Source: Hymenobacter cellulosivorans | Lineage (GTDB): Bacteria; Bacteroidota; Bacteroidia; Cytophagales; Hymenobacteraceae | Assembly: GCF_022919135.1 (NCBI RefSeq) | Contig: NZ_CP095049.1 | Span: 2,856,501-2,920,500, forward strand | Direction: 5' to 3' | Length of the DNA stretch: 64,000 bases | Part shown: piece by piece, positions 29,506 to 46,820 of the stretch | Layout of the letters: each line of letters begins with the position of its first letter | How positions within the stretch are numbered: position 1 is the first letter of the stretch | The notes under the pieces: model-generated | What the model saw: the letters and a program-made list of their open reading frames with translations, nothing else | What the model was told of the DNA's origin: nothing | Database searches by the model: none | Made by a program: the position numbers and the translations under genes

Positions 29506-29511
29506 ATTTTA

Positions 29512-29595
29512 GAACTCAGAAGTCAGAGCTTAGAACGTAGACTTTTGATCCACTCATTTCTAAGCTCTAGGTTCTAAGGTCTACGTTCTCAAAAG
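29512..29595. repeat. Inverted pair of degenerate heptamer arrays, mraY-murD
   Basis: Left array of five 7-mers in one phase (GAACTCA, GAAGTCA, GAGCTTA, GAACGTA, GACTTTT; 29512-29546) and right array of six whose reverse complements share the pattern (GAACGTA, GACCTTA, GAACCTA, GAGCTTA and others; 29554-29595). The two arrays face each other around a 7-base centre, so the RNA or single strand could fold into a long imperfect hairpin. Confidence 0.75.
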
Positions 29596-29597
29596 CC

Positions 29598-30965
29598 ATG
29601 TCTAAAAAAATCGTCATTCTCGGTGCGGCAGAAAGTGGAGTAGGGGCGGCGCTATTGGCGCAGGCCAAAGGCCACACCGTGTTTGTTTCCGACAAAAGCC
29701 CGATTCAGCCTATCTATAAGGAGAAGCTGACGGCCGCTGGTATTCCCTTCGAGGAAAGCACGCACACGCTGGAGGAGATTTTGACGGCCGACGAGGTGGT
29801 GAAAAGCCCCGGTATTCCGGAAAAGGCGCCCGTCATTCAGGCTCTGCGGGAAAAGAAGATTCCGGTGATTTCCGAAATAGAGCTGGCCGGGCGCTACACC
29901 AAGGCCCGCTGCATCTGCATCACTGGCACCAATGGCAAAACCACGACCACGCTGCTCACCTACCATTTGCTGAAGGAAGCGGGCCTGAAAGTAGGCTTGG
30001 CCGGCAACGTGGGCTACAGTCTGGCCGAACAGGTTATTGCCGACGAGCACGACTACTATGTCGTGGAGCTCAGCAGCTTCCAGCTCGACGACACTTATGA
30101 CTTCCGCGCCTGGGTGGCGGTGCTGCTCAACATCACCCCCGACCACCTCGACCGGTACGACTACTCCCTGGAAAAGTACGCCCACGCCAAGCTGCGCATC
30201 ACCCGCAACATGGACAGCAGCGGCTTTTTTATTTACAACGCCGACGACCCGGTTATTCAGCAGGAATTCGCCGCGGTGTTCAGCCAGACCAACCTGCTGC
30301 CCTTCAGTCTGCACCACCGCCCCGATTATCACCTGGCTGGCTACTATACTTCAGAAACCGAGCTTCGTACCAATCTGGCGCCGGGCCTGAATGAGCAGCC
30401 GGAACAGATCAGCACGGCCGGCTCCCCGCTGATTGGGCAGCACAACCGCCAAAATACCCTGGCCGCCGTGCTCTGTGCCCGGGTGGTGGGCCTGAGTGAG
30501 GAGCAGATTGAAAGCGCCCTGGCTACCTTCCGCAACGCCGACCACCGCCTGCAGCCTGTAGGCGAAATCAACGGGGCCCGGTTCATCAACGACTCCAAGG
30601 CCACCAACGTGGAAGCCGCCTGGTTTGCCCTCGACGGAATCCAGCAGCCCATCGTCTGGATTGCCGGCGGCACCGACAAAGGCAACGACTACAGCAGCCT
30701 GCTGCCCTTGGCCCAGGAAAAAGTAAAAGCCCTGATCTGCCTGGGCCTCGACAACGAAAAGCTCAAGGCCAGCTTCGGCTCCATCGTGCCCCACCTGGAA
30801 GAAACCCGGAGCATGACCGACGCCGTGCGCCGCGGCGCCGCCCTGGCCGCCCCCGGCGACGTGGTGCTGCTCTCGCCCTGCTGCGCCTCCTTCGACTTGT
30901 TCAAAAACTACGAGGACCGCGGCCGGCAATTCGCAGCGGCAGTCAGTGAGATGGTGAAATCGTGA
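29598..30965 (+). CDS. murD: UDP-MurNAc-L-alanine:D-glutamate ligase (MurD)
   Basis: A 455-residue Mur ligase adding D-glutamate. The N-terminal ILGAAESGVGAALLA, the ATP loop ITGTNGKTTTTLL, ELSSFQLDDTYDF, NITPDHLDRY and FINDSKATNVEAAWFAL are all intact. Its last residues (SEMVKS and the stop) are encoded by octamers of the repeat array that continues into the gap before ftsW, so the repeat has shaped the C-terminus. Confidence 0.95.
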   Translation: MSKKIVILGAAESGVGAALLAQAKGHTVFVSDKSPIQPIYKEKLTAAGIPFEESTHTLEEILTADEVVKSPGIPEKAPVIQALREKKIPVISEIELAGRYTKARCICITGTNGKTTTTLLTYHLLKEAGLKVGLAGNVGYSLAEQVIADEHDYYVVELSSFQLDDTYDFRAWVAVLLNITPDHLDRYDYSLEKYAHAKLRITRNMDSSGFFIYNADDPVIQQEFAAVFSQTNLLPFSLHHRPDYHLAGYYTSETELRTNLAPGLNEQPEQISTAGSPLIGQHNRQNTLAAVLCARVVGLSEEQIESALATFRNADHRLQPVGEINGARFINDSKATNVEAAWFALDGIQQPIVWIAGGTDKGNDYSSLLPLAQEKVKALICLGLDNEKLKASFGSIVPHLEETRSMTDAVRRGAALAAPGDVVLLSPCCASFDLFKNYEDRGRQFAAAVSEMVKS

Positions 30966-31041
30966 AATGGTGAGTTTGTCGTTATGACCGCTCCCGCTTC
31001 GTTGCCCATCAGCTCACCAGTTCACCTTTTCACAATTTCAC
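30946..31041. repeat. Inverted pair of degenerate octamer arrays, murD-ftsW
   Basis: Left array: GTGAGATG, GTGAAATC, GTGAAATG, GTGAGTTT (30946-30977), overlapping the murD 3' end. Right array on the other strand: GTGAAATT, GTGAAAAG, GTGAACTG, GTGAGCTG (31010-31041), ending five bases before the ftsW start. Consensus about GTGARNTK, period exactly 8. Confidence 0.78.
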
Positions 31042-31045
31042 CATC

Positions 31046-32224
31046 ATGGACCCGATCAAAACCTGGCTGCAGCGGAATCTGAAAGGTGACCCTATTCTGT
31101 GGGCCATTGTGATTCTGTTTTCGCTCATCAGTATTGCCGTAGTGTATTCTGCTACCGGCACGCTGGCGTACAAGAAGATGAGTGGCAACACCGAGTATTT
31201 CCTTTTCAAGCACACCAGCCTGATTTTCATCGGCCTGTTCTTCATGTGGCTGGCTCACCGCATCGACTACCGCTACTACTCGCGCCTGTCGCTCTACGCC
31301 CTGCTGATTTCGGTGCCCCTGCTGTTGTTCACCTTCTTCATGGGCGGCGACATCAACGGGGCTTCCCGCTGGATGACGATTCCGGTTATCAACCAGACGT
31401 TTCAGCCCTCCGACTTGGCCAAACTGGCCCTGATTTCTCACCTGGCCAGTATGCTTAGCCGCCGCCAGCAGCACCTCGATGACTTCAAATCGACGTTGCT
31501 GCCGGTAATGGTGTGGGTGGGAGCCATCTGTGGCCTGATCATTCTGAGTAACGCCTCAACGGCGCTGCTACTGTTTGCCACCTGCATGCTGCTGATGTTT
31601 ATTGGGCGGGTTCCCCTCAAGCACATGGCTGTCATGGTGGGCATTTTCATCGTTCTGGGCGGTACCGGTCTGGTAGTCGGACAGCGCCTGGGTACGTTTG
31701 TGTCGCGCATCACGAATTTTACCGACAAGACCAAAAAGACGCCCTTCCAGCTGGAGCACAGTTACATTGCCATTGCCACCGGCGGTATTGCTGGCAAGGG
31801 CCCGGGCCAGAGTACGGAGCGCAACATCTTGCCCCACCCGTATTCCGACTTTATATACGCCGTTATTATCGAGGAATACGGGTTGGCCGGCGGGGCTTTC
31901 GTGCTATTCCTGTATCTAGCCTTCCTTTATCGAGGGCTCAAAACGGTGATGAACAGCTACGGAGCCTTCGGGGGGCTGCTCTCGGCGGGGCTGGCGTTTA
32001 GTCTGGTCTTGCAGGCCATGGTCAATATGGGCGTGGCCGTGGGACTGGGCCCAATTACCGGCTTGCCGCTGCCCCTGCTGAGCATGGGCGGCACCTCCCT
32101 GATTTTTACCGGTATCAGCATCGGCATTATTCTCAGCGTCAGCCGCGGGGAGCGGGAAGTTCGGCCCATGACCGGCGAGCCGGAAGACACGGTCCGCATC
32201 CCGAAGAAAACGGCTTACGCCTAG
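31046..32224 (+). CDS. ftsW: Septal peptidoglycan polymerase FtsW
   Basis: A 392-residue SEDS-family protein with about ten membrane helices. The conserved NGASRWM loop, QPSDLAKLALI, the long loop SYIAIATGGIAGKGPGQSTERNILP and FIYAVIIEEYGLAGG are intact, as is the terminal PLPLLSMGGTSLI. FtsW polymerises glycan strands with FtsI at the septum. The start is the ATG at 31046, right after the repeat array. Confidence 0.94.
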   Translation: MDPIKTWLQRNLKGDPILWAIVILFSLISIAVVYSATGTLAYKKMSGNTEYFLFKHTSLIFIGLFFMWLAHRIDYRYYSRLSLYALLISVPLLLFTFFMGGDINGASRWMTIPVINQTFQPSDLAKLALISHLASMLSRRQQHLDDFKSTLLPVMVWVGAICGLIILSNASTALLLFATCMLLMFIGRVPLKHMAVMVGIFIVLGGTGLVVGQRLGTFVSRITNFTDKTKKTPFQLEHSYIAIATGGIAGKGPGQSTERNILPHPYSDFIYAVIIEEYGLAGGAFVLFLYLAFLYRGLKTVMNSYGAFGGLLSAGLAFSLVLQAMVNMGVAVGLGPITGLPLPLLSMGGTSLIFTGISIGIILSVSRGEREVRPMTGEPEDTVRIPKKTAYA

Positions 32225-32226
32225 CG

Positions 32227-32317
32227 GTGAGTTGGTGAGATGGTGAACTAGTGCGTTGTCGTTCAATCGGCGCCACTTGAACCCCAAGCTCACCAGTTCA
32301 CCATCTCACCAACTCAC
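32227..32317. repeat. Inverted pair of degenerate octamer arrays, ftsW-murG
   Basis: Left array: GTGAGTTG, GTGAGATG, GTGAACTA, GTGCGTTG (32227-32258). Right array, opposite strand: GTGAGTTG, GTGAGATG, GTGAACTG, GTGAGCTT (32286-32317). The facing arms form a 28-bp inverted repeat with one mismatch. The octamer words are shared with the murD-ftsW array. Confidence 0.85.
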
Positions 32318-32326
32318 CACTTAGAA

Positions 32327-33463
32327 GTGCCCAAAACGACTTTATATAGCGCCTCTTCCCAGCCCCGGCCGTACCGCGTGATAATCAGCGGGGGTGGTAC
32401 GGGTGGTCATATATTTCCGGCTGTGGCCATTGCCAACGAATTGCGTCGCCGTCAGCCCGACGCCGAAATTCTGTTTGTGGGCGCCAATGGCCGCATGGAA
32501 ATGACGCGCGTGCCCGAGGCTGGCTATAAGATTGTGGGCCTGGATATTGCTGGCCTGCAGCGCCGCCTGACGCCCCAGAACCTGCTGTTCCCGGTGAAAG
32601 TATTCCGCTCGGTGCGCAAGGCGGGCAAGCTGCTCCAGGAGTTCAAGCCAGATGCCGTGGTAGGCGTGGGCGGCTACGCTTCGGCCCCGGTGCTGCTGGC
32701 GGCCACCTCGCGCAATATTCCGGCCCTGATTCAGGAGCAGAATTCCTACGCCGGCCTAGTCAATAAGCTGCTCAGCCGCCGTGTTAACCGGATTTGTGTG
32801 GCCTATGACGGCATGGAAAAGTTCTTTCCCGCCGATAAGCTCGTACTGACCGGTAACCCCGTGCGCACCGAAATTGCCAGCGGCAACCGCGCCGACGCCC
32901 TGGAGTTCTTCGGCCTTTCGCCCGAGAAAAAGACCTTACTGGTCATTGGCGGCAGCCTGGGCGCGCGCACCCTGAACGAAGCCACCGCCGCCGCCCTGAC
33001 CCGCCTACAGGCCGCTGGGATTCAGCTGCTGTGGCAAACCGGCAAGCTCTACTACCCTAAAGCTGCCGCCGAAGCAGCCCCATTTGCCGCCGATAAGCTG
33101 CAGGCCTTAGAGTTTGTGCAGCGCATGGATCTGGCCTACGCCGCCGCCGACGTGGTTATCAGTCGGGCCGGCGCCTTATCGGTGTCGGAGTTGTGCCTGA
33201 CCGGCAAGCCCAGCATTCTGGTGCCCTCGCCCAACGTGGCCGAAGACCACCAAACCAAGAATGCTCTGGCTCTGGTGGATAAAGATGCCGCCCTGCTCGT
33301 GTCGGACGCTGAAGCTCCCACGAAGCTTTACGACCAGGCTCTGGCTTTGCTCAATGACCCGGCCCGGCAGCAGCAGCTCAGCCAAAACGTAAGCCGCCTG
33401 GCTTATCCCCACGGTACCACGACCATCGTGGATGAACTCTTAGCCCTCATGGACCGCGCATGA
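32327..33463 (+). CDS. murG: Lipid II-forming GlcNAc transferase MurG
   Basis: A 378-residue GT-B glycosyltransferase that converts lipid I to lipid II at the membrane. The glycine-rich ISGGGTGGHIFPA opens the acceptor domain; GGSLGARTLNEA and the ISRAGALSVSEL donor-binding region follow. The start is GTG, nine bases after the preceding repeat. Its stop overlaps the murC start (ATGA). Confidence 0.95.
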   Translation: MPKTTLYSASSQPRPYRVIISGGGTGGHIFPAVAIANELRRRQPDAEILFVGANGRMEMTRVPEAGYKIVGLDIAGLQRRLTPQNLLFPVKVFRSVRKAGKLLQEFKPDAVVGVGGYASAPVLLAATSRNIPALIQEQNSYAGLVNKLLSRRVNRICVAYDGMEKFFPADKLVLTGNPVRTEIASGNRADALEFFGLSPEKKTLLVIGGSLGARTLNEATAAALTRLQAAGIQLLWQTGKLYYPKAAAEAAPFAADKLQALEFVQRMDLAYAAADVVISRAGALSVSELCLTGKPSILVPSPNVAEDHQTKNALALVDKDAALLVSDAEAPTKLYDQALALLNDPARQQQLSQNVSRLAYPHGTTTIVDELLALMDRA

Positions 33464-34908
33464 ATCCCGTAGCCGCATTTCCGAACGTCTATTTTCTGGG
33501 TATCGGCGGCATTGGCATGTCGGCCCTGGCCCGTTGGTTTCAGGCCAATGGCCACCGCGTAAGCGGCTACGACAAAACCGCCACGCCCCTGACCGAGGCC
33601 CTGGCCGCCGAAGGCATTCAGGTGCACTACGACGATGCCGTGGAGAGCATTCCGGCCGAAGTGCGCGAAAACCGCGCCCAGACGCTGGTGGTCCTCACGC
33701 CTGCCATTCCCAAAGACCACAAGGAATGGGCCTGGCTGCGGGAGCAGGGCTACGACATCCGTAAGCGTAGCCAGGTACTGGGCGTACTCACGGCCGGCCG
33801 CTACACCATTGCCGTGGCCGGCACCCACGGCAAAACCACGACCAGCAGCATGGTTGCTCATTTGTTGCACCACGCCGGCGTGCCCTGCGCGGCCTTTTTG
33901 GGCGGCATTTCCGTGAACCTGGGCTCCAACGTCCTGCTGCCCCCGTCTAGTGAGCTAACAACAGACAACCAACAACTGACAACGACTCCAGTGGTAGTCG
34001 AGGCCGACGAGTACGACCGGAGCTTCCTGACTTTGCATCCCGACATTGCCATTGTCACCAGCACCGATGCCGACCACCTCGACATCTATGGCAATAAGGA
34101 GGCGCTGGTTGAGTCGTTCCGGCAGTTTGTAGCCCAGATCAAGCCCGGCGGCACGCTTATTCTCAACCACACCGCCGACCAGAGCATTGCCCAGTCGGTA
34201 GCCAACGGCGTGCGGGTTATTCGCTACGGTCTCTCGGCCGAGCAAGGTCCCGAGCTCTACGCCGCCCAGATTACAGCTCAGGGTCACCAGTTCCGTTTCG
34301 ACCTGCACAGCCCACTTGGCGACGTGCAAAATTTGGCGCTGGCCGTGCCCGGCTACCATAATGTGGAAAACATGCTGGCCGCCTGCTTGGTTGCTCAACT
34401 ACAACACGTAGGGGAGGAGCAGTTGAAAAGTGCGGTTGCAGCGTATCGGGGCGTCAAACGCCGGTTTGAGTTTATCGTCACCAAAGGCGACAAGGTGTAC
34501 GTGGACGACTACGCCCACCACCCGCGTGAAATAGATGCCTTCCTTCGCTCGTTACGGGCTTTGTACCCCGGTAAGCGCCTGCGCGTCGTGTTTCAGCCCC
34601 ACCTCTTCACCCGCACCCGCGACTTTGCTCCCGGCTTTGCCCAGAGCCTGAGCCTGGCCGATGAAGTCGTGATGCTCGACATCTACCCGGCCCGGGAGCT
34701 GCCGCTGGAAGGCGTGACCTCCGAATTGATTTTGTCCCAAATAACGGCTTCGCACAAGTCGTTGCAAACCAAAGCGGAAGTCCTGGCTGCGGCCGAATCA
34801 GACGATACTTTCGACGTGTTAGCCACCGTCGGCGCTGGGGATATTGACCAGCTTGTACCACGGCTAAGGAATATTTTAGATATTCGCTGGAATGGAGCTG
34901 AAGCGTAA
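33460..34908 (+). CDS. murC: UDP-MurNAc:L-alanine ligase (MurC) with a repeat-encoded insertion
   Basis: A 482-residue Mur ligase attaching L-alanine. The Rossmann start YFLGIGGIGMSALARWF, the ATP loop VAGTHGKTTTSSMVAHLL, EADEYDRSF and DDYAHHPREI are intact. Residues about 165-178 (SSELTTDNQQLTTT) sit just before EADEYDRSF and are encoded by four xnACAAC-type heptamers (33956-33983). This polar loop is not expected from the family core and looks like a tolerated insertion of the repeat seen in the intergenic gaps. It overlaps ftsQ by 17 bases. Confidence 0.93.
   Translation: MNPVAAFPNVYFLGIGGIGMSALARWFQANGHRVSGYDKTATPLTEALAAEGIQVHYDDAVESIPAEVRENRAQTLVVLTPAIPKDHKEWAWLREQGYDIRKRSQVLGVLTAGRYTIAVAGTHGKTTTSSMVAHLLHHAGVPCAAFLGGISVNLGSNVLLPPSSELTTDNQQLTTTPVVVEADEYDRSFLTLHPDIAIVTSTDADHLDIYGNKEALVESFRQFVAQIKPGGTLILNHTADQSIAQSVANGVRVIRYGLSAEQGPELYAAQITAQGHQFRFDLHSPLGDVQNLALAVPGYHNVENMLAACLVAQLQHVGEEQLKSAVAAYRGVKRRFEFIVTKGDKVYVDDYAHHPREIDAFLRSLRALYPGKRLRVVFQPHLFTRTRDFAPGFAQSLSLADEVVMLDIYPARELPLEGVTSELILSQITASHKSLQTKAEVLAAAESDDTFDVLATVGAGDIDQLVPRLRNILDIRWNGAEA
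33956..33983 (+). repeat. Heptamer array inside murC
   Basis: Four tandem 7-mers: TAACAAC, AGACAAC, CAACAAC, TGACAAC. The reading frame stays open through them. No inverted partner array is visible nearby. Confidence 0.75.
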
Positions 34909-35656
34909 AGCCAACAACCTGATTTTTGCCACTGGGTGCCTCGTGCTGCTCTCGGGGCTGGCCGTGTTTGCCGGAGTCCGGCAGGCCAGCCGCCCCGTGG
35001 GCCAGGTCATCGTGACTATTGGCAACGAGTTCAACAACTACTTCATCAGTGAGCGGGAAGTAACGGCTTTATTAACCCGCAATGGCAACCAGCAGCTCGA
35101 GGGTGCCCACCCCGACGACCTTGACCTTAAAGCCCTGGAAGCCCGCCTCAAAGCGCACAGCTTCGTTAAGGAAGCTCAAGTATACCGCGACCTGGCCGGC
35201 AATTTGCACGCCGACGTGCGCCAAAACCGTCCGATTGCCCGCCTCGTACACGCCGATACCCGCCTGGATAGCTACCTCGATGCCGAGGGCAAGAAACTGC
35301 CGTTGTCGTCGTTATTCACTGCCCGCGTGGTGCCCATTTCCCGGCTGGGGGGCGGGCCGCTCCAAGCTGGCTTTTTCCAAGATTCCACCGGTCGTCAGTA
35401 TCTGGCGTTTTTGCGCTATATTGATGAGCATCCGTTCTGGCGGGCCCAGGTAGCGGAGGTATTTATTGGCCCTAATGGCAAAGTTTCCTTCACCCAGCAA
35501 GTGGGGGACCAACGAATAGAATTTGGCTTTCCGGAGAATATTTCGGAAAAATTTGCGAAACTGATGGTATTTTACCGTCAAATTCCTCCGGTCTTGGGCT
35601 GGGACACGTACCACCGCGTCAACGTTGAGTTCAAAGATCAAATCATTTGTGAGTAA
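34892..35656 (+). CDS. ftsQ: Division protein FtsQ
   Basis: A 254-residue bitopic protein: short cytoplasmic start, one membrane helix (about 9-28) and a periplasmic part with a POTRA-like region (EVTALLTRNGNQQLEG... FVKEAQVYRDLAGNLHADVRQNRPIARL) followed by the beta domain. FtsQ links FtsL to the divisome. Divergence is high as usual for FtsQ; the call rests on position between murC and ftsA plus topology. Confidence 0.88.
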   Translation: MELKRKANNLIFATGCLVLLSGLAVFAGVRQASRPVGQVIVTIGNEFNNYFISEREVTALLTRNGNQQLEGAHPDDLDLKALEARLKAHSFVKEAQVYRDLAGNLHADVRQNRPIARLVHADTRLDSYLDAEGKKLPLSSLFTARVVPISRLGGGPLQAGFFQDSTGRQYLAFLRYIDEHPFWRAQVAEVFIGPNGKVSFTQQVGDQRIEFGFPENISEKFAKLMVFYRQIPPVLGWDTYHRVNVEFKDQIICE

Positions 35657-35669
35657 CGAAATCTTGCGT

Positions 35670-35693
35670 AAACGCCCAAAAACGGCGTTTTTT
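35670..35693 (+). terminator. Hairpin with T run between ftsQ and ftsA
   Basis: AAACGCC and GGCGTTT arms, 7-base loop, then TTT. It may reduce readthrough into ftsA-ftsZ; no TAnnTTTG promoter is visible in the short remaining gap. Confidence 0.6.
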
Positions 35694-35742
35694 GCAACTG
35701 AAATCATAGCACCAACCGCACCCCACTCGTCCTTCCTTCCTC

Positions 35743-37104
35743 ATGCAAAACGATAAGATTGTAGTCGGCCTCGACATTGGCACCACCAAAATTTGCGCTC
35801 TGGTAGGGCGGAAAAACGAGTTTGGGAAGCTCGAAATCCTGGGCATGGGCAAAGCCGTGTCGGAAGGAGTGGTGCGCGGTATCGTGTCGAACATCGACAA
35901 GACGGTGGATGCAATCCGGAAGGCAATTCGGCAAGCCGAAGAACAGTCCGGAATCAATATTGGCGTCGTGAACGTGGGCATCGCCGGCCAGCACATCAAG
36001 AGCCTGCAGCATAACGGTAGCATCACCCGCAATTCCGCCGAAACGGAGATTACCGTGGACGATGTAAATCGTCTTACCAACGATATGTACCGCCTGGTTA
36101 CCCCGCCCGGCTCGGAAATCATCCACGTAATGCCCCAGGACTACAAGGTGGACTACGAGGAAGGTATCATGGACCCCGTGGGCATGTCGGGCGTGCGCCT
36201 GGAAGGCAACTTCCACATCATCACGGCCCAGAGCACGGCCATCAACAACATCAACAAGTGCGTCACCAAAGCTGGCCTGGAAATCGATAACCTGATTCTC
36301 GAGCCGCTGGCTTCGAGCATGTCGGTGCTGTCGGAAGAAGAAAAGGAAGCTGGTGTGGCCCTGATTGACATTGGAGGCGGCACCACCGACCTGGCTATCT
36401 TCAAGGACGGTATCATCCGCCACGCCGCTGTGCTGCCCTTTGGTGGCAACATCGTGACCAGCGACATCAAGCAGGGCTGCGCCGTCATGCAGAACCAGGC
36501 CGAGCAGCTGAAGGTGAAATTCGGCAAAGCCATTGCCGAAGAAGCATCCGACTACGAAATCGTGAGCATCCCCGGCCTGCGCGACCGGGCTCCTAAGGAA
36601 ATTTCCCTCAAGAACCTGGCCCACATCATCGAGGCCCGGATGGAGGAAATCATCGAGCTGGTGTACGCCGAGATTCAGCGCACTGGCCACGGCGACAAGC
36701 TCGCGGCTGGCATCGTGCTGACCGGCGGCGGCTCTCAGCTCCAGAACCTGGTGCAGCTCACCGAGTACGTAACGGGCCTCGATACCCGCATTGGCTACCC
36801 CAATGAGCACCTGGGCAAAAGCAAAATTGAGGCGGTGAAGTCGCCGATGTACGCTACCACTGTAGGCCTAGTACTAGCCGGTTACCGCTCGATTGACGAG
36901 CGAGTGAGCCGTTCGTACGAGGAAGAGGAGCAGTACCGCCCAGCGCCCGAGGTTCGGGCCGCTGCGCCGGTTGCTCCCCAGCCGGCCCCCGCACCCCAGC
37001 CCGCCCCGCCGAAGAAAACTTCGGGCGCTGGCAAGTTCTTCCAGGACATCATCAGCCGTACGAAAGGCCTGCTGATTGATGACTTTGACGACAAGCAGTA
37101 CTAA
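35743..37104 (+). CDS. ftsA: Divisome actin-like ATPase FtsA
   Basis: A 453-residue actin-fold protein that tethers FtsZ to the membrane. It shows the first phosphate loop VVGLDIGTTKICALVG, the second phosphate motif LIDIGGGTTDLAIF and the adenosine motif IVLTGGGSQLQNL, with the FtsA-specific 1C subdomain between. A proline/alanine-rich linker (about 395-425) precedes a conserved C-terminal LLIDDFDDKQY that probably includes the membrane-targeting segment. Confidence 0.95.
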   Translation: MQNDKIVVGLDIGTTKICALVGRKNEFGKLEILGMGKAVSEGVVRGIVSNIDKTVDAIRKAIRQAEEQSGINIGVVNVGIAGQHIKSLQHNGSITRNSAETEITVDDVNRLTNDMYRLVTPPGSEIIHVMPQDYKVDYEEGIMDPVGMSGVRLEGNFHIITAQSTAINNINKCVTKAGLEIDNLILEPLASSMSVLSEEEKEAGVALIDIGGGTTDLAIFKDGIIRHAAVLPFGGNIVTSDIKQGCAVMQNQAEQLKVKFGKAIAEEASDYEIVSIPGLRDRAPKEISLKNLAHIIEARMEEIIELVYAEIQRTGHGDKLAAGIVLTGGGSQLQNLVQLTEYVTGLDTRIGYPNEHLGKSKIEAVKSPMYATTVGLVLAGYRSIDERVSRSYEEEEQYRPAPEVRAAAPVAPQPAPAPQPAPPKKTSGAGKFFQDIISRTKGLLIDDFDDKQY

Positions 37105-37105
37105 A

Positions 37106-37208
37106 TCATTTAACATTTAACAATTATCAGTTGACACTTCCCCGGGCAGAAAAGCTTGTAGATGCAGAGTAGTTGAGTGATAAATGATAAATGGTAACTG
37201 TTAATTGA
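37106..37208. repeat. Inverted pair of degenerate heptamer arrays, ftsA-ftsZ
   Basis: Left array: TCATTTA, ACATTTA, ACAATTA, TCAGTTG, ACACTTC (37106-37140). Right array, opposite strand: TCAATTA, ACAGTTA, CCATTTA, TCATTTA, TCACTCA (37174-37208). Shared consensus about WCANTTA, period exactly 7, spaced by 33 bases. Confidence 0.78.
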
Positions 37209-37220
37209 AGCAGACCACTC

Positions 37221-38714: not shown

Positions 38715-38735
38715 ACTGGCCGCCTTGCTGCCAAC

Positions 38736-38770
38736 AAAAAAGCCACTCCGAGTCCCGGAGTGGCTTTTTT
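38736..38770. terminator. Terminator of the dcw cluster
   Basis: Perfect 14-bp arms AAAAAAGCCACTCC and GGAGTGGCTTTTTT with a 7-base loop. Symmetric A and T runs allow termination from both sides, including the small minus-strand gene that follows. Confidence 0.9.
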
Positions 38771-38803
38771 GTTGACTTAGGAGCTAGTAGCTCAGGAAAT
38801 TAG

Positions 38804-38959: not shown

Positions 38960-39073
38960 GAGGGTAAGGAGAGTGAATTGCCGGTTCTCGGCAACAGAGA
39001 AAGATACTGCACCACAGTACCTGGCCGCTAATACGGCTTGGCTGTCAGGAAGTTTGGGGAATCAGTTGCGGAG

Positions 39074-39103
39074 CAAAGATAGTGTGGTGCCATCTGGGTT
39101 CAA
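39074..39103 (-). promoter_or_regulatory. Promoter of the small secreted peptide gene
   Basis: On the minus strand, TTG (39103-39101), 19 bases, then TATCTTTG (39081-39074): a full match to the Bacteroidota promoter. The 115-base leader is long and could hold a regulatory RNA structure, though none is obvious. Confidence 0.65.
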
Positions 39104-39139
39104 CTACTTACCACTGCCGCTGTAACCGCTGGCCAGGAG

Positions 39140-40291: not shown

Positions 40292-40462
40292 CCGAGGTAG
40301 AGTAGCGTTAGGGAAAAGTCCAAGATATTGATTTCTAGCGTAACCCAGCGCTTCCGGGAATGGTTTCGGGCCGGTAAATTCCCACTCGGCAGGCGTACCA
40401 CTACCCGTGCCCTGGGGCTTTGCGTACCTTGGCTTCGTTTTCCTCACCTCGACGTTTGCCAC

Positions 40463-41746
40463 ATGCTTTTTCGGATGTTGTCCCGCCTGTGGGCTGAGTA
40501 CCGCGCGCTTCTGTGGTTTAGCGGGCGTTGGCTGCTAATCAGTGCCATCGTTGGAGCTCTGGCAGGCACGGCCTCAGCGGGTTTCCTAGTGGCACTGGAT
40601 TGGGTAACGGCTTGGCGGGAGGAGCACCCCTGGATCCTGGCCGGGCTGCCGCTGGGTGGGCTGCTGGTCGGGCTGCTGTATCACTATTGGGGCCGGTCGG
40701 TGGAAGCCGGCAACAACCTGCTGCTGGAGGAGATTCATGCGCCCCGGGCCGTTTTGCCCCTGCGCATGGTCCCGCTGGTGCTGGTCGGTACGCTGCTGAC
40801 GCACTTGTTTGGCGGCTCGGCCGGGCGGGAAGGCACCGCCGTGCAGATGGGCGGCGCCTTGGCTGACCAACTCACGCGCTGGTTCCGCCTGCACCGCCGT
40901 GACCGGACTTTGCTGCTGATTGCGGGCATCAGCGCCGGGTTTGCTTCCGTGTTTGGTACGCCGCTGGCCGGAGCCGTTTTTGGACTGGAAGTGTTTCTGC
41001 TGGGCCGCCTGCGCTATGATGCCATCCTGCCCAGCTTTTTGGCGGCCGCCTGCGCCGACTGGGTTACGCGGGCTTGGGGAGTAGGGCATACAGCTTATCC
41101 GGTGCTGCTGGCTCCCCCTGGCTTTTCGTTGCTGAGCCTGGGCAGTGCCGCCGCCGCTGGCTTGGCTTTCGGACTAACGGCCCGCTTGTTTGCTGGTACT
41201 ACGCACCGCATCAGCGCCTTTTTCAAGCACTGGCTGCCTTTTGCACCTTTGCGCCCTGTGCTGGGCGGCGTCGTGGTAGTGCTGCTGGTGTGGGGGCTGG
41301 GCGCCACGGATTATATCGGTTTGGGCGTGCCGGTCATCGTGCGGGCATTTGCTGAGCCGCTGCCGAGTTACGCCTTTGCCCTGAAAATCCTGCTGACAGC
41401 CCTGACGCTGGGGGCTGGCTTTAAGGGGGGCGAAGTCACGCCGCTGTTTTTTATTGGCGCAGCCCTAGGCAATGCGTTGGCGCCGCTGTTGCCGTTGCCC
41501 ATGCCCTTGTTGGCGGGCATGGGCTTCGTGGCTGTGTTTGCCGGGGCGGCCAATACACCCCTGGCCTGCATCCTGATGGGCCTGGAGCTGTTTGGGCAGC
41601 AGGGAGGCCTGTACATTGCGCTAGCCTGCGTGGTGAGCTACCTGTTCTCCGGCCACCGCGGTATTTACGGTGCCCAGCAGGTAGGCCAGAGCAAGCATGG
41701 CTTATGGGCGCGGCATCAGGGCCGGCGGTTGCGCGACCTGCGTTAA
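40463..41746 (+). CDS. ClC-type chloride channel or antiporter
   Basis: A 427-residue membrane protein of the ClC family. The GGSAGREGTAVQMGGALAD segment is the GxEGP-like filter motif, SAGFASVFGTPLAGAVFGLEV follows, and GAGFKGGEVTPLFFIGAALGNAL is the GKxGPxxH-type region. Ten or more helices are visible; no CBS domains. Whether it is a channel or a Cl-/H+ exchanger is open. The start could be ATG 40463 or 40475. It is divergent from a MauG gene; the gap has only near matches to the -7 consensus (TACCTTGG). Confidence 0.87.
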   Translation: MLFRMLSRLWAEYRALLWFSGRWLLISAIVGALAGTASAGFLVALDWVTAWREEHPWILAGLPLGGLLVGLLYHYWGRSVEAGNNLLLEEIHAPRAVLPLRMVPLVLVGTLLTHLFGGSAGREGTAVQMGGALADQLTRWFRLHRRDRTLLLIAGISAGFASVFGTPLAGAVFGLEVFLLGRLRYDAILPSFLAAACADWVTRAWGVGHTAYPVLLAPPGFSLLSLGSAAAAGLAFGLTARLFAGTTHRISAFFKHWLPFAPLRPVLGGVVVVLLVWGLGATDYIGLGVPVIVRAFAEPLPSYAFALKILLTALTLGAGFKGGEVTPLFFIGAALGNALAPLLPLPMPLLAGMGFVAVFAGAANTPLACILMGLELFGQQGGLYIALACVVSYLFSGHRGIYGAQQVGQSKHGLWARHQGRRLRDLR

Positions 41747-42753
41747 GCGCCTGGCGTCCGGCCTTTCAGCAAATATTTGGTTTGCTTGAAGCTGTAACCT
41801 ACCGCTATTACCATCCGACCGGCGCCGGCCGGATGGTCGGTGGTGACGGTATAAATGGGGAACTGGGCGCTGGTGTTCAGCGAAAAGTTCTTGTAGTAAA
41901 TGTCGAGGCCGGGCCCCAGCAGCGCGTCGTTCATGGCGTGTTCGTAGGTGAGTTGCCCGTCCAGCATTTCGCCCTTGGTTTTCTCGTAGTAGAGCTGAGC
42001 CGAAGGATAGATTTGCCAGTTTGAGCCCAGGGCCACACGGTAAAACAGGTTGGCGAAGCTGGCGGTGCTGGGTGCCAGACTATTCTCAAACTGATTGCGG
42101 GTCGAGCGGCGGTAGCTGGAATTTAGGCTCAGGCCTACGTTGTGAAAGCTGCCGATGTAGTTTAGGTACAGGAAGCCGTCGGTGGTGCCGGTGCCGGGTT
42201 GGTTGAGCATGGAGTAGCGCTGCCCCCGCGGGTTGGTGCGCTGGTAGTCGCCGGTAGGCAGCTTGGCCCCGCCACCCACGATGAGTCGGCTTTGCACGCC
42301 CATCGTCTCAATGGCCCGAATCAGGTGGTAGCCGGCAAATACGGTGACGTCGCCCAGGCCCGCAGTGTTGAGCTGCCGCCCGTTGCTTTGGGACGTATTC
42401 ATGACGTAGGGAACAAAGGCGTTCAGCTCCAGACGCTTGGCCAGAAAGTACTTGCCCCGTAGCTCCACTACCCGGTACGCTTCATAGTCGGTGGCGTCGC
42501 CCTGGTGGTTATGCTCGTAGCCCGTATCCTGGTTGGGGTGACTGGGCACAAAAGGCTGGACGCCCGCCGGAAAAAACTGGTGCGGCTGCCCCAGTTGCTG
42601 GTAGCCATTGAAGATTCGGTAGCGGTGCATCAGCGAAATGCCGCTTTGATTATCGTAGGGCGTAATACCCATAAAGCAGCCGCAGATGTCGCAGGCGCGG
42701 GCTGCCGGACTCAGTAGGCTCAAGAGAGCCAGAGTCAGATATAATTGTCTCAT
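41743..42753 (-). CDS. Outer-membrane barrel protein with CDICGC N-terminus
   Basis: A 336-residue exported protein with a signal peptide ending at ARA. The mature chain begins with the metal-site-like CDICGCFMG (21-29), followed by alternating beta-strand segments and a C-terminal aromatic strand, typical of an outer-membrane beta-barrel. I recognise it only as a Bacteroidota transporter-like barrel often linked to MbnP and MauG genes. The cysteines could bind copper. It follows a MauG gene on the same strand by 57 bases and probably belongs to that operon. Its last four bases overlap the ClC gene. Confidence 0.72.
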   Translation of the reverse strand: MRQLYLTLALLSLLSPAARACDICGCFMGITPYDNQSGISLMHRYRIFNGYQQLGQPHQFFPAGVQPFVPSHPNQDTGYEHNHQGDATDYEAYRVVELRGKYFLAKRLELNAFVPYVMNTSQSNGRQLNTAGLGDVTVFAGYHLIRAIETMGVQSRLIVGGGAKLPTGDYQRTNPRGQRYSMLNQPGTGTTDGFLYLNYIGSFHNVGLSLNSSYRRSTRNQFENSLAPSTASFANLFYRVALGSNWQIYPSAQLYYEKTKGEMLDGQLTYEHAMNDALLGPGLDIYYKNFSLNTSAQFPIYTVTTDHPAGAGRMVIAVGYSFKQTKYLLKGRTPGA

Positions 42754-42810
42754 GATGATTTGACGATGAGGTTGTTGGTCGGCCGAGCGCGGTAACAAAC
42801 GGCCGACTCG

Positions 42811-43866
42811 CTACGGTTTTTCCGACAGACGCTTGTCCGTCAGGAATTGCTCGTCGGTCAGCGTCTGCAGAAAAGCCAGCAGGTCGGTTTTTTCCTGGGC
42901 ACTCAGAGGAATCCCAATGGTGCCGTCGGTTTGCAGCTGCGAATCGAGCGTGGGCGAAGGCTGCACGCCATGGTCATAATGGTCCAGTACCTGTTCCAGC
43001 GTCTGAAAGCGCCCGTCGTGCATGTAGGGTGCCGTGCGAAACACGTTGCGCAGGGAAGGCACTTTGAACTTGCCCCGGTCGGTGGCCAGCTGGGTGATGC
43101 GTGCCCGGCCCGAGTCGGCCGCAAATGTCCGGTCCAGCCCGTTGTTACGGTAGGAATTGTCAGTAAACAAGTCCGTGCTGTGGCAGGGCGTGCATTTCTG
43201 GGTCAGTACGGCTAGGCCCCGAAGCTCAACCGGCGTCAGCGTGCCGCCACTCTCGTGGCGCACGTAGTGGTCGTAGCGCGAGTTGGCCGACGTCAGGGAC
43301 GCCGTAAATTGCGCCAGTGCCCGCAGCAGCTGGTAGGAGTCAATGGGTTTGGAGCCAAATACAACGGCGAAGCGCTGTGGGTACGAAGCATCCGCGTTGA
43401 GCTTACGAACCACGTTTTCCATCGTCTCGTCCATCTCGTGCGCATCGGTCAGGGGCGCCACAGGCATGGTTTCGAGGTGATTGGAGCCGCCGTCCCAGAG
43501 AAACGTGCGCTGCCAGCGCAGATTCTGCAGGGCCGGAGCATTGCGCGTACCCAGCAGCCCGTCGATGCCGTGGCTCAGGGTGTGGCCGGCGTGGGCAAAG
43601 GCCACAAACTGCTGGTGGCAGCTACCGCAGGAGATGGTACCGTCGCGGGAAAGGCGGGGGTCGTAAAACAGGGTCCGACCCAGCTCAAAACCGGCTTTAG
43701 TTGGTGGGTTTTGGTCTAAACCGTACACCGGAGCCGGAAAATTGGCGGGTAATACGCTGCCGGGTATCGTTTCGGGGGCCACCTCCACCTCGGACTGACA
43801 GCCCGCTACCAGCAGTGCTGCTAGCCCCACGGCCAGCAGCACCCTGGGAGTGCGTTGCGTCGTCAT
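42811..43866 (-). CDS. Diheme MauG/CCP-family lipoprotein, MbnH-like by context
   Basis: A 351-residue lipoprotein (lipobox LLVAGC, cysteine 23) with two heme sites, CGSCH (80-84) and CTPCH (225-229), and the APYMHDGRFQTLEQVLDHYDHG block. It starts eight bases after the MbnP-family gene. In methanobactin and related copper loci, MbnH is a diheme MauG-family enzyme that oxidises a tryptophan of its partner MbnP to kynurenine; this pair fits that arrangement. Function as a simple peroxidase remains possible. Confidence 0.87.
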   Translation of the reverse strand: MTTQRTPRVLLAVGLAALLVAGCQSEVEVAPETIPGSVLPANFPAPVYGLDQNPPTKAGFELGRTLFYDPRLSRDGTISCGSCHQQFVAFAHAGHTLSHGIDGLLGTRNAPALQNLRWQRTFLWDGGSNHLETMPVAPLTDAHEMDETMENVVRKLNADASYPQRFAVVFGSKPIDSYQLLRALAQFTASLTSANSRYDHYVRHESGGTLTPVELRGLAVLTQKCTPCHSTDLFTDNSYRNNGLDRTFAADSGRARITQLATDRGKFKVPSLRNVFRTAPYMHDGRFQTLEQVLDHYDHGVQPSPTLDSQLQTDGTIGIPLSAQEKTDLLAFLQTLTDEQFLTDKRLSEKP

Positions 43867-43874
43867 CTGTCGCC

Positions 43875-44642
43875 TTAGTTGGCGTGAATATGATCCACGC
43901 GGAACATACCGGCCGCGTAGTTATCCGCTATTTTGACCGCGGCAGCTCCCGGCATGTGGGCCGTGCTGAAGGTGGCAAACCGGACCTCGGTGGGGCCGGT
44001 CAGAATCTTCATCACATCCACTTTCAGATGCATTTCGGGCGCGTGGTCGGCCCGAATGAGGAGCTTAGAGCCGGTAGGGAAGGCTGGTGAAACGGTTCGA
44101 ATGGCGTTGTTCACGCCCTCAAAGCCCCCAACATGGTATGTAAAGGCTCCCGAGCCAGCTTCCGGCGACCGGCCTTCCAGCTTCAGAAAAATGTAGCCCG
44201 TGTTCCAGCTCCAGAACATGTCGCTCGGGGCCAGGGCTCCCTGCTGGGCTCCGGCCGTGTTGCGGGCCGCGTCGACGCCGATGGTGAAGGTAATACCCGT
44301 GTAGTCACCGGCTGGGACGTTTTCCAGGGTCAGCACTTTCGACTCGGTGCGGGCGGCATCCACCAAGTAGTAGCTCTCGGGCTGAGCGTATTCGCTGCCG
44401 TCTTCCTTGCGCAACCGGATATTGGAAATGTAGTAGCGCAGCGTGCTCACCGAGAAATGGTCGCCGCTGGGAGTGGTATAATTCGGCGTAGTGGCGTTCA
44501 TTACCAAGGTGCTGGAGCCCACTACGTGGTCCATCTCAAGGGCAAGTTTGCCTACCTGGGGTTCGGCGTCGGCGTCTTTTTTGCAGCCGCTGAAGGAAAA
44601 GGCCAGGAGGGAAAGGGCCAGGAAAAGCTGGGGAAATTTCAT
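43875..44642 (-). CDS. MbnP-family copper-binding-type lipoprotein
   Basis: A 255-residue lipoprotein (lipobox SFSGC, cysteine 20) of the MbnP family: VGKLALEMDHVVGS at the start, the STLRYYISNIRL strand, YYLVDAARTES, GDYTGITFTIGVD and the conserved DMFWSWNTGYIFLKLEG with W144 and W146. MbnP proteins bind copper through a modified tryptophan; either tryptophan could be the target of the adjacent diheme enzyme. Several histidines (HHVGGF-like region, DHAPEMHLKVD, the terminal DHIHAN) could be ligands. The ATG at 44642 is the signal peptide start. Confidence 0.83.
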   Translation of the reverse strand: MKFPQLFLALSLLAFSFSGCKKDADAEPQVGKLALEMDHVVGSSTLVMNATTPNYTTPSGDHFSVSTLRYYISNIRLRKEDGSEYAQPESYYLVDAARTESKVLTLENVPAGDYTGITFTIGVDAARNTAGAQQGALAPSDMFWSWNTGYIFLKLEGRSPEAGSGAFTYHVGGFEGVNNAIRTVSPAFPTGSKLLIRADHAPEMHLKVDVMKILTGPTEVRFATFSTAHMPGAAAVKIADNYAAGMFRVDHIHAN

Positions 44643-44748
44643 CTTCGAAAAAACAGGAGTAAAACCAAATAGGCAGCACGAAGCATTCCCGGATGGGAGC
44701 AATGGCAGCCAAGCCCGGCTACTAGCGAAGCAGCCGGCTACGTTGGAA

Positions 44749-45129
44749 TTAAGCCCGGAATGACGGAGGATGAAAAATGCTGTGCGCGGGCGTAAAGCAG
44801 TACGGCGCGCTGGAACTGCGCCCAAATAGGGCAGGTGCCGCCGGTACAGCAGCCGGGGCAGATAAAAGAGCCCGCACGGGTAGCAAGGCGTCGTACTTCA
44901 CTTTCGCAAAGCCGCCGGCGGGCGCCTTGCTTTCGGCCGATTCGGCTTTGCGCAGCTTTTTGGCCAGGTGGCACTTGCCGTTACACTGGAGCTTGGGCTT
45001 GTCCTTATTGACGCAGAACAGCTCGGTAATTCGCTCCTTGTGCAGCTGATAATCCATTACCACCAGCTCCCGACTGAAAGTCTGGAGCAAAATCAGGGTG
45101 GTAAGAAGATAAGCCAGCGTACGTGCCAC
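44749..45129 (-). CDS. Small exported Cys protein with CNGKCHL motif
   Basis: A 126-residue protein with an N-terminal hydrophobic segment and the motif FCVNKDKPKLQCNGKCHLAKKL (C39, C49, C53, H54), which looks like a soft-metal site. The C-terminal half is low-complexity and hydrophobic. Small proteins with this CNGKCHL core occur in Bacteroidota near metal transport genes. It starts with GTG and lies 106 bases upstream of the MbnP gene on the same strand, so it may be the first gene of the copper locus. Confidence 0.65.
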   Translation of the reverse strand: MARTLAYLLTTLILLQTFSRELVVMDYQLHKERITELFCVNKDKPKLQCNGKCHLAKKLRKAESAESKAPAGGFAKVKYDALLPVRALLSAPAAVPAAPALFGRSSSAPYCFTPAHSIFHPPSFRA

Positions 45130-45157
45130 AGGGAGGAGTTGGTACCACTAAGAATAC

Positions 45158-45209
45158 CAAATATACACGGGCAGCTCGAAAAACAGTTCGGCCAGCCAGC
45201 GCAAATGTA
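45158..45209 (-). promoter_or_regulatory. Two tandem -7 boxes upstream of the copper-type locus
   Basis: TATATTTG (45158-45165) and TACATTTG (45202-45209), both perfect -7 matches on the minus strand. The proximal one leaves a 28-base leader. Neither has TTG at the ideal -33 distance; the second lies against the stop codon of the upstream gene. Confidence 0.45.
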
Positions 45210-45210
45210 T

Positions 45211-45738
45211 TTAGGAAGCCACCAATTGCTCGGCCTGTTCTTTCAGGAGCTGCAGATACAGCGAATTGTCGAGCTCACCGTTGCTGAGCAAATACTTGTC
45301 GAGGCTGGGCAGACGAACCCGGGCCGGCAGTACCAGCGTGCCCAGATACATCAGGATATCGGTCAGGTGGCTTAAGGCCAGCAGGCCGCCCTGGGTACCG
45401 GCACTCAGGCCCACCAGCGCCGCCCGCTTACCCCGGATGCCGCCCGGATAGGGCAATCCGTCGATGAAAGATTTGAGCACGCCGGGAATTGAGCAGTTGT
45501 ATTCAGGCACAATAAAGACCAGCTTATCGGCCGACTCCGCCTGTCGCACCAGCTTGTTGAACTGCTCGTGCTTGCCGGTATTCTCGTACAGAGCCGAGGT
45601 AATGAAGTCGCCGGGCAGGTCGGCCAAATCCAGGATCTGGTATTCAGCGCCCATATCCTCAAGCAGGGCCGCGTAGATGTTGGCGACGCGACGGGCGCGG
45701 GAGGCCGGCCGATTGGTACCGGCAATAATAGTAATCAT
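45211..45738 (-). CDS. NAD(P)H-dependent FMN reductase family protein
   Basis: A 175-residue flavodoxin-fold reductase. The phosphate loop ITIIAGTNRPASRARRVANI, FIVPEYNCSIPGVLKSFIDGLP (PEYN motif) and ALVGLSAGTQGGLLALSHL match the NADPH-dependent FMN reductase/azoreductase-like family. The substrate is unknown (quinone, chromate or azo dyes in relatives). The ATG at 45738 starts the first strand; the longer reading adds unrelated residues. Confidence 0.87.
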   Translation of the reverse strand: MITIIAGTNRPASRARRVANIYAALLEDMGAEYQILDLADLPGDFITSALYENTGKHEQFNKLVRQAESADKLVFIVPEYNCSIPGVLKSFIDGLPYPGGIRGKRAALVGLSAGTQGGLLALSHLTDILMYLGTLVLPARVRLPSLDKYLLSNGELDNSLYLQLLKEQAEQLVAS

Positions 45739-45915
45739 GCGAAAGCAGGCGAGTAGAAAGGCGGAGCAAAACGGTAGCTGAACCGCTAAACTAGTGCAGT
45801 AAGCCAGAACCACCCCAGAATGTTACTTCGTGGAACCAATAAATTGGCTTGGGGGCAAAAAGAAAAGCGCGAAACGAGGATTCGTTTCGCGCTTTCAGAA
45901 TAGGATTGCCGCAGT

Positions 45916-46701
45916 TTACGCCAGATTGTTCGACGTTGCTTTGGCCGACAGAAACTCGCGGTTCAGGATGGCAATGTTTTCCAGCGAGATGCCCACGGGG
46001 CATTCGGCGGCACAGGAGCCAATGTTGGAGCAGGCGCCAAAGCCTTCCTTGTCCATCTGGGCCACCATGTTTTCCACGCGGGTTTTGCGCTCTACCTGAC
46101 CCTGAGGCAGCAAAGCCAGCTGGGATACTTTGGCCGAAACGAACAGCATAGCCGAAGCATTCTTGCAGGCCGCAACGCAGGCACCGCACCCAATGCAGGT
46201 AGCTGCTTCGAAGGCTCGGTCAGCAATGTCCTTGGGCACCGGAATTTCGTTGCCGTCGGGTACGCCACCGGTATTTACGCTGATATAACCACCCGCCTGA
46301 ATAATCCGGTCGAAGGCCGAGCGGTCTACGCTGAGGTCTTTGTTGACGGGGAAGGCGTTAGCGCGCCAGGGCTCGATAGTGATGGTATCGCCGTCCGAGA
46401 ACTTGCGCATGTGCAGCTGGCAGGTAGTCGTGCCGGCTTCCGGACCGTGGGCCCGGCCATTGATGAACAGGTTACACGAGCCGCAGATACCTTCGCGGCA
46501 GTCGTGGTCAAAGGCTACCGGATCATCGCCGCGACGCAGCAGATCCTCATTGAGTACGTCCAGCATCTCCAGGAACGACATCTCGGGGGAAATGTCCTTT
46601 ACCTGGTAATCTACAATTTGGCCTTGGGCGTTGCGGTTTTTCTGCCGCCACACCTTCAGCGTGAGATTCATTGGTTTGGCATTCGGGTTACTTCCAGCCA
46701 T
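45916..46701 (-). CDS. sdhB: Succinate dehydrogenase iron-sulfur subunit (SdhB)
   Basis: A 261-residue subunit carrying three iron-sulfur clusters between the flavoprotein and the membrane. The [2Fe-2S] ligands are in [16 protein letters not shown], and the C-terminal ferredoxin domain has [13 protein letters not shown] and [15 protein letters not shown]. It is the last gene of the sdhC-sdhA-sdhB unit. It has the larger, C-terminally variant form typical of cytochrome b558-type enzymes in Bacteroidota. Confidence 0.94.
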
Positions 46702-46709
46702 TTTATTTC

Positions 46710-46817
46710 TGAATTATGAATTATGAATTGAAAATTATGAATTGAAGTCAGGAAGCGGAAAGGGGAGCTATGGGAGGCTGGTCCCATTCCACTTCCTGAT
46801 TTCTAATCCATAATTCA
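46710..46817. repeat. Inverted pair of degenerate heptamer arrays, sdhA-sdhB gap
   Basis: Left array: TGAATTA twice, TGAATTG, AAAATTA, TGAATTG, AAGTCAG, GAAGCGG (46710-46758). Right array, opposite strand: TGAATTA, TGGATTA, GAAATCA, GGAAGTG (46790-46817). Period exactly 7. It fills the gap between sdhA stop and sdhB start. Confidence 0.78.
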
Positions 46818-46820
46818 GTT

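Follow-up and report, generated by a model that had tools for sequence, protein, structure and literature searches.

A 64,000-nucleotide stretch of Hymenobacter cellulosivorans DNA (contig NZ_CP095049.1, positions 2,856,501 to 2,920,500; "the window" below means this whole stretch) carries, in five of the gaps between its genes, long hairpins whose arms are tandem arrays of degenerate 7- or 8-bp words. Such periodic hairpins are dispersed through the genome, share their word vocabularies among loci, lie between one stop codon and the next start codon, swing widely in copy number within the genus, and are replaced as whole sequences between close relatives at fixed sites. We favor the reading, with a probability of about 0.55, that they are colonizing palindromes that have been retained at some junctions as cistron-separating hairpins. 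Two junctions, ftsA-ftsZ and sdhA-sdhB, are never empty or doubled in the 50 and 36 genomes examined, respectively, and are mostly filled by a hairpin, which suggests that a stem-loop separating the two cistrons is kept there.

Periodic hairpins in the window and across the genome

Inverted arrays of 7- or 8-bp words occur at mraY-murD, murD-ftsW, ftsW-murG, ftsA-ftsZ, and sdhA-sdhB, as an earlier note on this DNA had described; this is borne out by Tandem Repeats Finder (TRF), by reading the sequence directly, and by an ungapped scan for inverted repeats. Four of the gaps hold clean inverted pairs with arms of 24-33 nt and loops of 22-48 nt, and the sdhA-sdhB structure is asymmetric. The features are as follows.

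29510..29535, + strand: 5' arm of the mraY-murD hairpin, heptads AGAACTC AGAAGTC AGAGCTT
29558..29583, + strand: 3' arm of the mraY-murD hairpin, TTCTAAG heptads; the array extends to 29589, and the murD ATG is at 29598
30950..30973, + strand: 5' arm of the murD-ftsW hairpin, GTGAAATG octads; shares sequence with the final murD codons and the murD stop (murD end 30965)
31022..31045, + strand: 3' arm of the murD-ftsW hairpin; abuts the ftsW ATG (31046)
32223..32253, + strand: 5' arm of the ftsW-murG hairpin, GTGA octads; starts inside the ftsW stop codon (ends 32224)
32291..32321, + strand: 3' arm of the ftsW-murG hairpin, from the ungapped scan
37106..37138, + strand: 5' arm of the ftsA-ftsZ hairpin, TCATTTAACA heptads; immediately 3' of the ftsA stop (37104)
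37176..37208, + strand: 3' arm of the ftsA-ftsZ hairpin; ends 12 nt upstream of the ftsZ ATG (37221)
46709..46746, - strand: AATTATG heptad array of sdhA-sdhB, on the 3' side in gene sense
46744..46803, - strand: inner non-periodic stem of sdhA-sdhB (46744-46764 / 46783-46803)
46803..46818, - strand: short outer partner CTGAATTATGGATTAG of sdhA-sdhB, on the 5' side in gene sense, right behind the sdhA stop

The two arms match at 21 of 26 positions in mraY-murD (best lag 14, with 7 also reported by TRF), 22 of 24 in murD-ftsW (lag 8), 29 of 31 in ftsW-murG (lag 8), and 26 of 33 in ftsA-ftsZ (lag 7). The earlier count of 27 matches between 28-bp arms at ftsW-murG is reproduced by the inner 28 bp of that stem. 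As RNA, the five gaps fold with z-scores from -2.6 to -10, the extreme being ftsW-murG (-57.8 kcal/mol, z -10). The minus-strand sdhA-sdhB RNA reaches -46 kcal/mol (z -8.4) in a fold that joins the long heptad array and its outer partner over a 20-nt bulge; this gap is less regular than the other four and was missed by the ungapped periodicity filter (lag z 1.9). Three periodic inverted pairs in the window exceed a fixed threshold, whereas 100 first-order shuffles yielded 0.03 on average and never more than 1. At murD-ftsW the final murD codons lie within the octad array, and the tails encoded by such arrays differ among relatives.

The same class was sought in 1.144 Mb of the H. cellulosivorans genome, in stretches that were picked independently of the repeat and that include the window and eight stretches near it. 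A home-made hexamer caller defined the genes and left 888 gaps no longer than 700 bp, of which the scan took in those measuring 20 bp or more. It recovered 24 long-loop hairpins with periodic arms, compared with a mean of 0.0 in five shuffles per gap, which bears out the proposal that these arrays form a family in inverted layout distinct from simple microsatellites. With lags of 5-15 allowed, their best lags are 7 (ten hairpins), 8 (ten), and 14 (four). Strict scoring of tandem arrays that ignored inverted partners failed to pick up most of the loci because the words are degenerate.

Gene orientation around these hairpins is strongly biased, with 22 in same-direction gaps, 2 in divergent gaps, and 0 in convergent gaps (p = 0.0036 against gap counts, p = 0.0006 against gap bases). 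Four of the 24 belong to the window, so 18 of the 20 outside it lie between same-direction genes. An earlier, more loosely scored pass over 744 kb had given 19 periodic hairpins, 3 of them divergent. Short-loop, terminator-like hairpins in the 1.144-Mb sample are distributed differently, with 82 same-direction, 75 convergent, and 1 divergent. Among the 22 same-direction periodic hairpins, arms measure 19-35 nt, loops 14-109 nt, and gaps 80-198 bp. In 18 of them the distance from the stop codon to the beginning of the 5' arm is -4 to 11 nt, and in 18 the 3' arm stops short of the called start by 0 to 25 nt; one outlier at 101 nt is murG, whose start the caller placed too far downstream. These arm positions indicate that the periodic element usually constitutes the whole gap.

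The earlier note had described the words as differing between loci, apart from those shared by the two octamer loci. Instead, the same vocabularies (GTGA octads, AGAACTT, GTTGTTAG, and TAGGGTCT) recur at several sites across the genome. Of the 16 octad arrays in the sample, 12 face a convergent partner no more than 260 bp away and none has a divergent partner alone, compared with a convergent partner at 10 of 3200 random positions, and none of the 16 lies inside a called gene. Of 120 Hymenobacter genomes, 94 match the octad pattern; counts run from 0 to 514 per genome and stand at 168 in H. cellulosivorans, and a reversed-octad control gives 0 in this genome and no more than 3 in any other of the genus. 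With such swings in copy number, the hairpins behave as dispersed palindromic repeats. Across the phylum, 6 of 198 genomes match: H. cellulosivorans, a second Hymenobacter, and four further genomes with 1-10 matches. These four are at background level because the reversed control matches 10 of the 198 (up to 8). The AATTATG heptad is more widespread than the octad, matching 22 of the 198 phylum genomes with no match for its control. In 72 loci around murD from Bacteroidota other than Hymenobacter (1.45 Mb), 13 periodic inverted pairs occur, 8 of them at lag 7, including examples in Mucilaginibacter and Sediminibacterium; one of the 13, at lag 5, is apparently unrelated.

Pairing between octad arms was compared within and between 17 loci. 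An arm matches its own partner at a median of 19 positions and arms of other loci at 17 (Mann-Whitney p = 0.07), and the own-partner mean of 19.5 compares with a permutation mean of 17.5 and a permutation maximum of 20.5. Arms from different octad loci thus pair nearly as well as true partners, and their complementarity comes mainly from the shared vocabulary. We do not claim locus-specific compensation between octad arms on an own-partner advantage this slight. Of the 17 word-selected octad loci, 4 carry a loose pattern for an inner motif, GTGAGTTnGTCGTTC, at both inner ends; counted for each side separately, the pattern occurs in 7 and 5 loci, compared with a shuffle rate of 0.9%, which indicates that the homology between loops is real, but partial.

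Some loci combine or depart from these forms. At positions 3964475 and 3465089 of the H. cellulosivorans genome (L021 and L042) the structures are nested, with octad arms around a TGTCCTTGCGAG palindrome and heptad arms around an intrinsic-terminator-like hairpin. Palindromes resembling GCAGAGGACGCAG, with best lags of 9, 10, or 12, occur at position 5357161 (L022) and in several mraY-murD gaps, and this family includes a 48-bp perfect stem in genome G040.

Junction fillings among Hymenobacter species

Five close relatives were compared, and orthologs of seventy H. cellulosivorans gaps were identified in one or more of them. Among six species, sdhA-sdhB carries three unrelated vocabularies, and at mraY-murD CGCAGTGG words replace AGAACTT in one of the six. 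The ftsA-ftsZ gap is alike in five of the six, and G039 has a hairpin-free sequence instead. Whole fillings are also replaced between sister genomes. At ftsA-ftsZ, G016 (GGGTCTTGG words) and G055 (TTAATAATT) are unrelated in sequence, as are G056 (CATGCTGAG) and G042 (TTTAACA), and the same is true at sdhA-sdhB of G015 (TTTTGAA) and G014 (AGTAGTGAG).

Two junctions keep their size while their contents change. In all 50 Hymenobacter genomes compared, the ftsA-ftsZ gap measures 82-136 bp; it holds a periodic hairpin in 35, another hairpin in 7, and none in 8, so that 42 of 50 have a hairpin. The sdhA-sdhB gap measures 89-130 bp in 36 of 36 genomes, with 18 periodic, 14 other, and 4 without a hairpin. 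Single-linkage grouping of gap sequences above shuffled scores sorted ftsA-ftsZ into 8 groups, of which one lacks a hairpin, and a FastTree phylogeny of seven proteins requires no fewer than 17 group changes; a finer grouping by eye gives 21 changes. For sdhA-sdhB, 7 groups and at least 15 changes were found among the 36 genomes. In contrast, the gap ranges from 1 to 176 bp at mraY-murD and from 17 to 359 bp at murD-ftsW, and gaps shorter than 35 bp occur in 12 of 49 genomes at mraY-murD, 8 of 50 at murD-ftsW, and 7 of 50 at ftsW-murG. The earlier note would have taken homologous gaps that lack the pattern, with no trace of replacement, as a refutation. Such gaps are sometimes empty in relatives, as at mraY-murD, but those at ftsA-ftsZ and sdhA-sdhB usually contain a hairpin, which often comes from another family.

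The same slots can also be occupied by non-periodic palindromes of the GTCATGCTGAGC type, which can provide the start codon of murD. This occupancy suggests that the feature kept is the hairpin and not the period. The mraY-murD gaps of G103, G066, G056, G042, and G067 (L203, L191, L207, L215, and L204) are filled by a non-periodic palindrome, GTCATCCTGAGC...GCTCAGCATGAC, whose terminal ATGAC apparently gives murD its ATG.

The neighboring ftsQ-ftsA gap (83-172 bp) has no periodic hairpin in any of the 50 genomes and no hairpin at all in 48. This gap (window positions 35657-35742) is 83-87 bp long in most of the 50 congeners, and its opposite strand folds better in all 50; it is perhaps a conserved regulatory stretch.

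Under the favored reading, these patterns come from several repeat families, dispersed through the genome, whose members are short palindromes with arms made of degenerate 7- or 8-bp words in tandem. They would settle between a stop codon and the next start codon, mostly of same-direction genes. At ftsA-ftsZ and sdhA-sdhB, selection for a cistron-separating stem-loop would retain an element despite turnover of the families. Acting on the polycistronic mRNA, a stem of 25-33 bp just behind the stop codon would most likely protect or process RNA ends and isolate translation of the downstream cistron. The copies at other sites are probably passengers that are close to neutral. An RNA processing role, which the earlier note had listed among its suggestions, is possible for these hairpins.

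A stronger form of this reading, which we put forward tentatively and at somewhat below even odds, is that such junctions are selected structural slots. The hairpin filling of about 100 bp would be conserved and its sequence would not, with replacements drawn from palindromes across the genome, both periodic-word and other. If this is true, then a function has been conserved by structure and place alone across the at least 17 and at least 15 group changes of the two junctions. Intergenic palindromes are often taken to be parasites or terminators, and here a stem-loop persists at the same junctions in most congeners as its sequence is swapped, so that searches for conserved RNA based on alignment would overlook it. 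With dozens of congeners bearing unrelated hairpins at the same site, the genus offers a natural experiment on whether a repeat family is a parasite, a part, or both. Bacteroidota make little use of Shine-Dalgarno pairing, and the slots may point to how these bacteria separate neighboring cistrons.

The strongest competing explanation, which we consider less likely, is that the palindromes are selfish repeats without a host function, with operon gaps as the few tolerated sites and the two junctions as hotspots overwritten by recombination. Their copy number of 0 to 514 within one genus, the near-equal matching of octad arms within and between loci, the empty gaps in relatives, and the balanced mismatches described below all agree with selfish spread. 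Dispersal of palindromic repeats covers the vocabularies, the copy numbers, and the empty sites, but by itself it does not explain the slot constancy at ftsA-ftsZ and sdhA-sdhB, where the narrow length ranges contrast with those of mraY-murD and murD-ftsW. A pure hotspot should yield empty and doubled sites as well.

Tests of selection on the hairpins

Several observations weigh against retention of a cistron-separating hairpin. No hairpin reaches the threshold in 8 of 50 ftsA-ftsZ and 4 of 36 sdhA-sdhB gaps, and in three of these eight ftsA-ftsZ genomes (G056, G103, and G008) the gap has TGTCATGCTGAG ends slightly below threshold. The score is only 10-11 for 5 of the 14 other sdhA-sdhB hairpins and 2 of the 7 other ftsA-ftsZ hairpins, a value attained by about 20 of 446 shuffled gaps, and a score of 12 is attained by none. 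Read off the tree, 2 of the 17 group changes at ftsA-ftsZ lead to or from the hairpin-free group, and the number of changes may be inflated by old homology that has decayed past recognition; some nodes of the tree are weak. Outside the genus, a periodic ftsA-ftsZ hairpin occurs in 1 of 61 loci. Octad hairpins between convergent genes also exist, with 3 in stretches that were fetched for octad matches and are thus octad-biased. Neither insertion machinery nor target duplication was found in a search for the Y1 transposase (PF01797) and a by-eye comparison of gaps.

The mismatches in the stems belong to the same side of the balance. Pair-by-pair selection at the transcript level predicts that G-U mismatches outnumber A-C mismatches in gene sense. 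Short-loop hairpins show this lean in same-direction gaps (G-U:A-C 46:15, p = 9e-5) and lack it in convergent gaps (11:14), which indicates that the test works. For long-loop hairpins, comprising those of the division and cell wall (dcw) gaps and the periodic ones of the H. cellulosivorans genome, the ratio is 118:116, and it is 72:69 in a subset of independent cases. Within this subset ftsA-ftsZ has 36:19 (p = 0.03, post hoc and one of several gaps) and the remainder has 36:50 (p = 0.009 for the difference). The ftsA-ftsZ lean had been seen before sdhA-sdhB was counted, and it is not repeated there (27:25).

The gene strand folds more stably than its complement at ftsA-ftsZ in 37 of 50 genomes, at sdhA-sdhB in 15 of 36, at mraY-murD in 14 of 34, at ftsW-murG in 9 of 31, and at murD-ftsW in 2 of 32. 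This comparison is confounded by base composition because the hairpin-free ftsQ-ftsA gap gives 0 of 50. From the balanced mismatches and the fold energies, pair-by-pair RNA selection is not demonstrated, with ftsA-ftsZ as a possible exception. Single mismatches may be nearly neutral in long stems, so the G-U test has little force against an RNA role of the whole hairpin.

These results also bear on a purely transcript-level origin, in which selection on mRNA would have built the hairpins locally from tandem duplications as RNase III sites or stability stems. The strong RNA folds, the preference for same-direction gaps, and the G-U lean and gene-strand stability at ftsA-ftsZ speak for it. However, mismatches are balanced overall, the gene strand is mostly not the more stable one at murD-ftsW and ftsW-murG (with composition as a confounder), and the shared vocabularies indicate dispersal and not local origin, which makes this explanation improbable. 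A role in presenting stop codons in every frame was dropped because vocabularies such as GCAGAGGACGCAG contain no stops (by eye).

We regard it as very unlikely that the hairpins are replication products, in which slippage and template switching within palindromes made both the words and the match between arms with no mobility. Tandem arrays of fixed period are expected from such a process; heptads are among the units that commonly slip (Mrazek 2007, cited in a passage of PMC4679880), and the register of the mraY-murD 3' arms differs by eye between close relatives. However, the recurrence of the same vocabularies at scattered loci and the swaps of whole vocabularies at one site are left unexplained, and octad arms match their own partners barely better than arms of other loci. 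Template switching, a suggestion of the earlier note, is thus insufficient alone, and along with slippage it may have shaped the arms after insertion.

Relation to known repeats and neighboring features

Repetitive extragenic palindromic (REP) units, described in part of PMC2817692 as 20-40 bp long with GTAG or CGTC tags and a Y1 transposase, resemble the Hymenobacter hairpins as high-copy extragenic palindromes, as do REPINs. Such elements go with REP-associated tyrosine transposases (RAYTs), and a table in the portion of PMC12306157 used here includes three Bacteroidota genomes but not Hymenobacter. Mobilization of REP or BIME-type elements by a RAYT can be set aside as highly improbable, since PF01797 has no match in H. 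cellulosivorans, G014, or G002 (168, 223, and 128 octad matches, respectively; 83 of 120 congeners do have a match), a GTAG or CGTC tag lies within 8 nt outside the 5' arm in only 3 of 22 same-direction hairpins, and the period and the sizes of arms, loops, and gaps do not fit the 20-40 bp unit.

Other known classes were compared in the same way. Attenuation by an intrinsic terminator, also suggested earlier, is not borne out, as 59 of 82 short-loop hairpins but 1 of the 22 periodic ones have TTTT close to the 3' end. The arrays are inverted, have one loop each, and lie between housekeeping genes, a layout on which CRISPR was rejected; cas genes were not searched for. Filled and empty gaps compared by eye reveal no clear target duplication of the kind associated with miniature inverted-repeat transposable elements (MITEs), for which the parent transposase was not searched for.

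The TAACTGA heptamer direct repeats are known from Beggiatoaceae, cyanobacteria, and five Bacteroidetes, and one of 170 repeat sets is inverted, according to passages of PMC4679880. They are intergenic heptads near start codons, occur in Bacteroidota, and are sometimes missing in close relatives, as is the case here, but in those passages they consist of a single word in direct orientation whereas the Hymenobacter arrays are inverted and use several vocabularies. Tandem TAACTGA pairs number 0 in the 1.144-Mb sample, and an inverted partner accompanies 12 of 16 octad arrays, so membership in this class was rejected. A closer structural likeness is to the P6b stem-loop of the Nostoc trnL (UAA) intron, where, in the part of PMC4476775 drawn on, degenerate 7-nt repeats of two unrelated word classes (TDNGATT or NNTGAGT) are interchangeable and form the same structure in different lineages. 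Degenerate-heptad stems with interchangeable word classes are present here too, and the likeness is structural only. P6b is a single group I intron site, whereas the Hymenobacter hairpins occupy many intergenic sites, include octads, and draw on more vocabularies; Rfam has no match in the window. The abstract of PMC1590033 reports that stem-loops exceed chance in prokaryotic intergenic space, mostly near gene 3' ends, and that some form repeat families, and it mentions neither periodic arms nor a Bacteroidota family. The earlier note knew of no described Bacteroidota family with this layout, and no description of inverted heptad or octad arrays in Bacteroidota was found in the open-licence literature, which is not proof of absence. 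The cyanobacterial small dispersed repeats and short tandemly repeated repetitive (STRR) sequences (Elhai 2008; Mazel 1990) are reported to be small hairpins of 21-27 nt that are nested and mixed with heptads and considered mobile. Those repeats are reportedly embedded in heptads, whereas here the heptads or octads are themselves the arms.

NCBIfam supports the names mraY, murD, murG, ftsA, ftsZ, sdhA, sdhB, and sdhC, and FtsW matches its NCBIfam model below the cut-off. The protein called FtsQ has no NCBIfam match, so its name is based on position alone. The closest named matches of MurD are 8 Hymenobacter proteins at 73-80% identity, followed by Rufibacter at 61%. Rfam gave nothing at gathering scores in the window. 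Non-periodic, perfect, short-loop stems of 31, 26, and 19 bp lie at window positions 53582-53650, 59086-59143, and 38732-38774, respectively.

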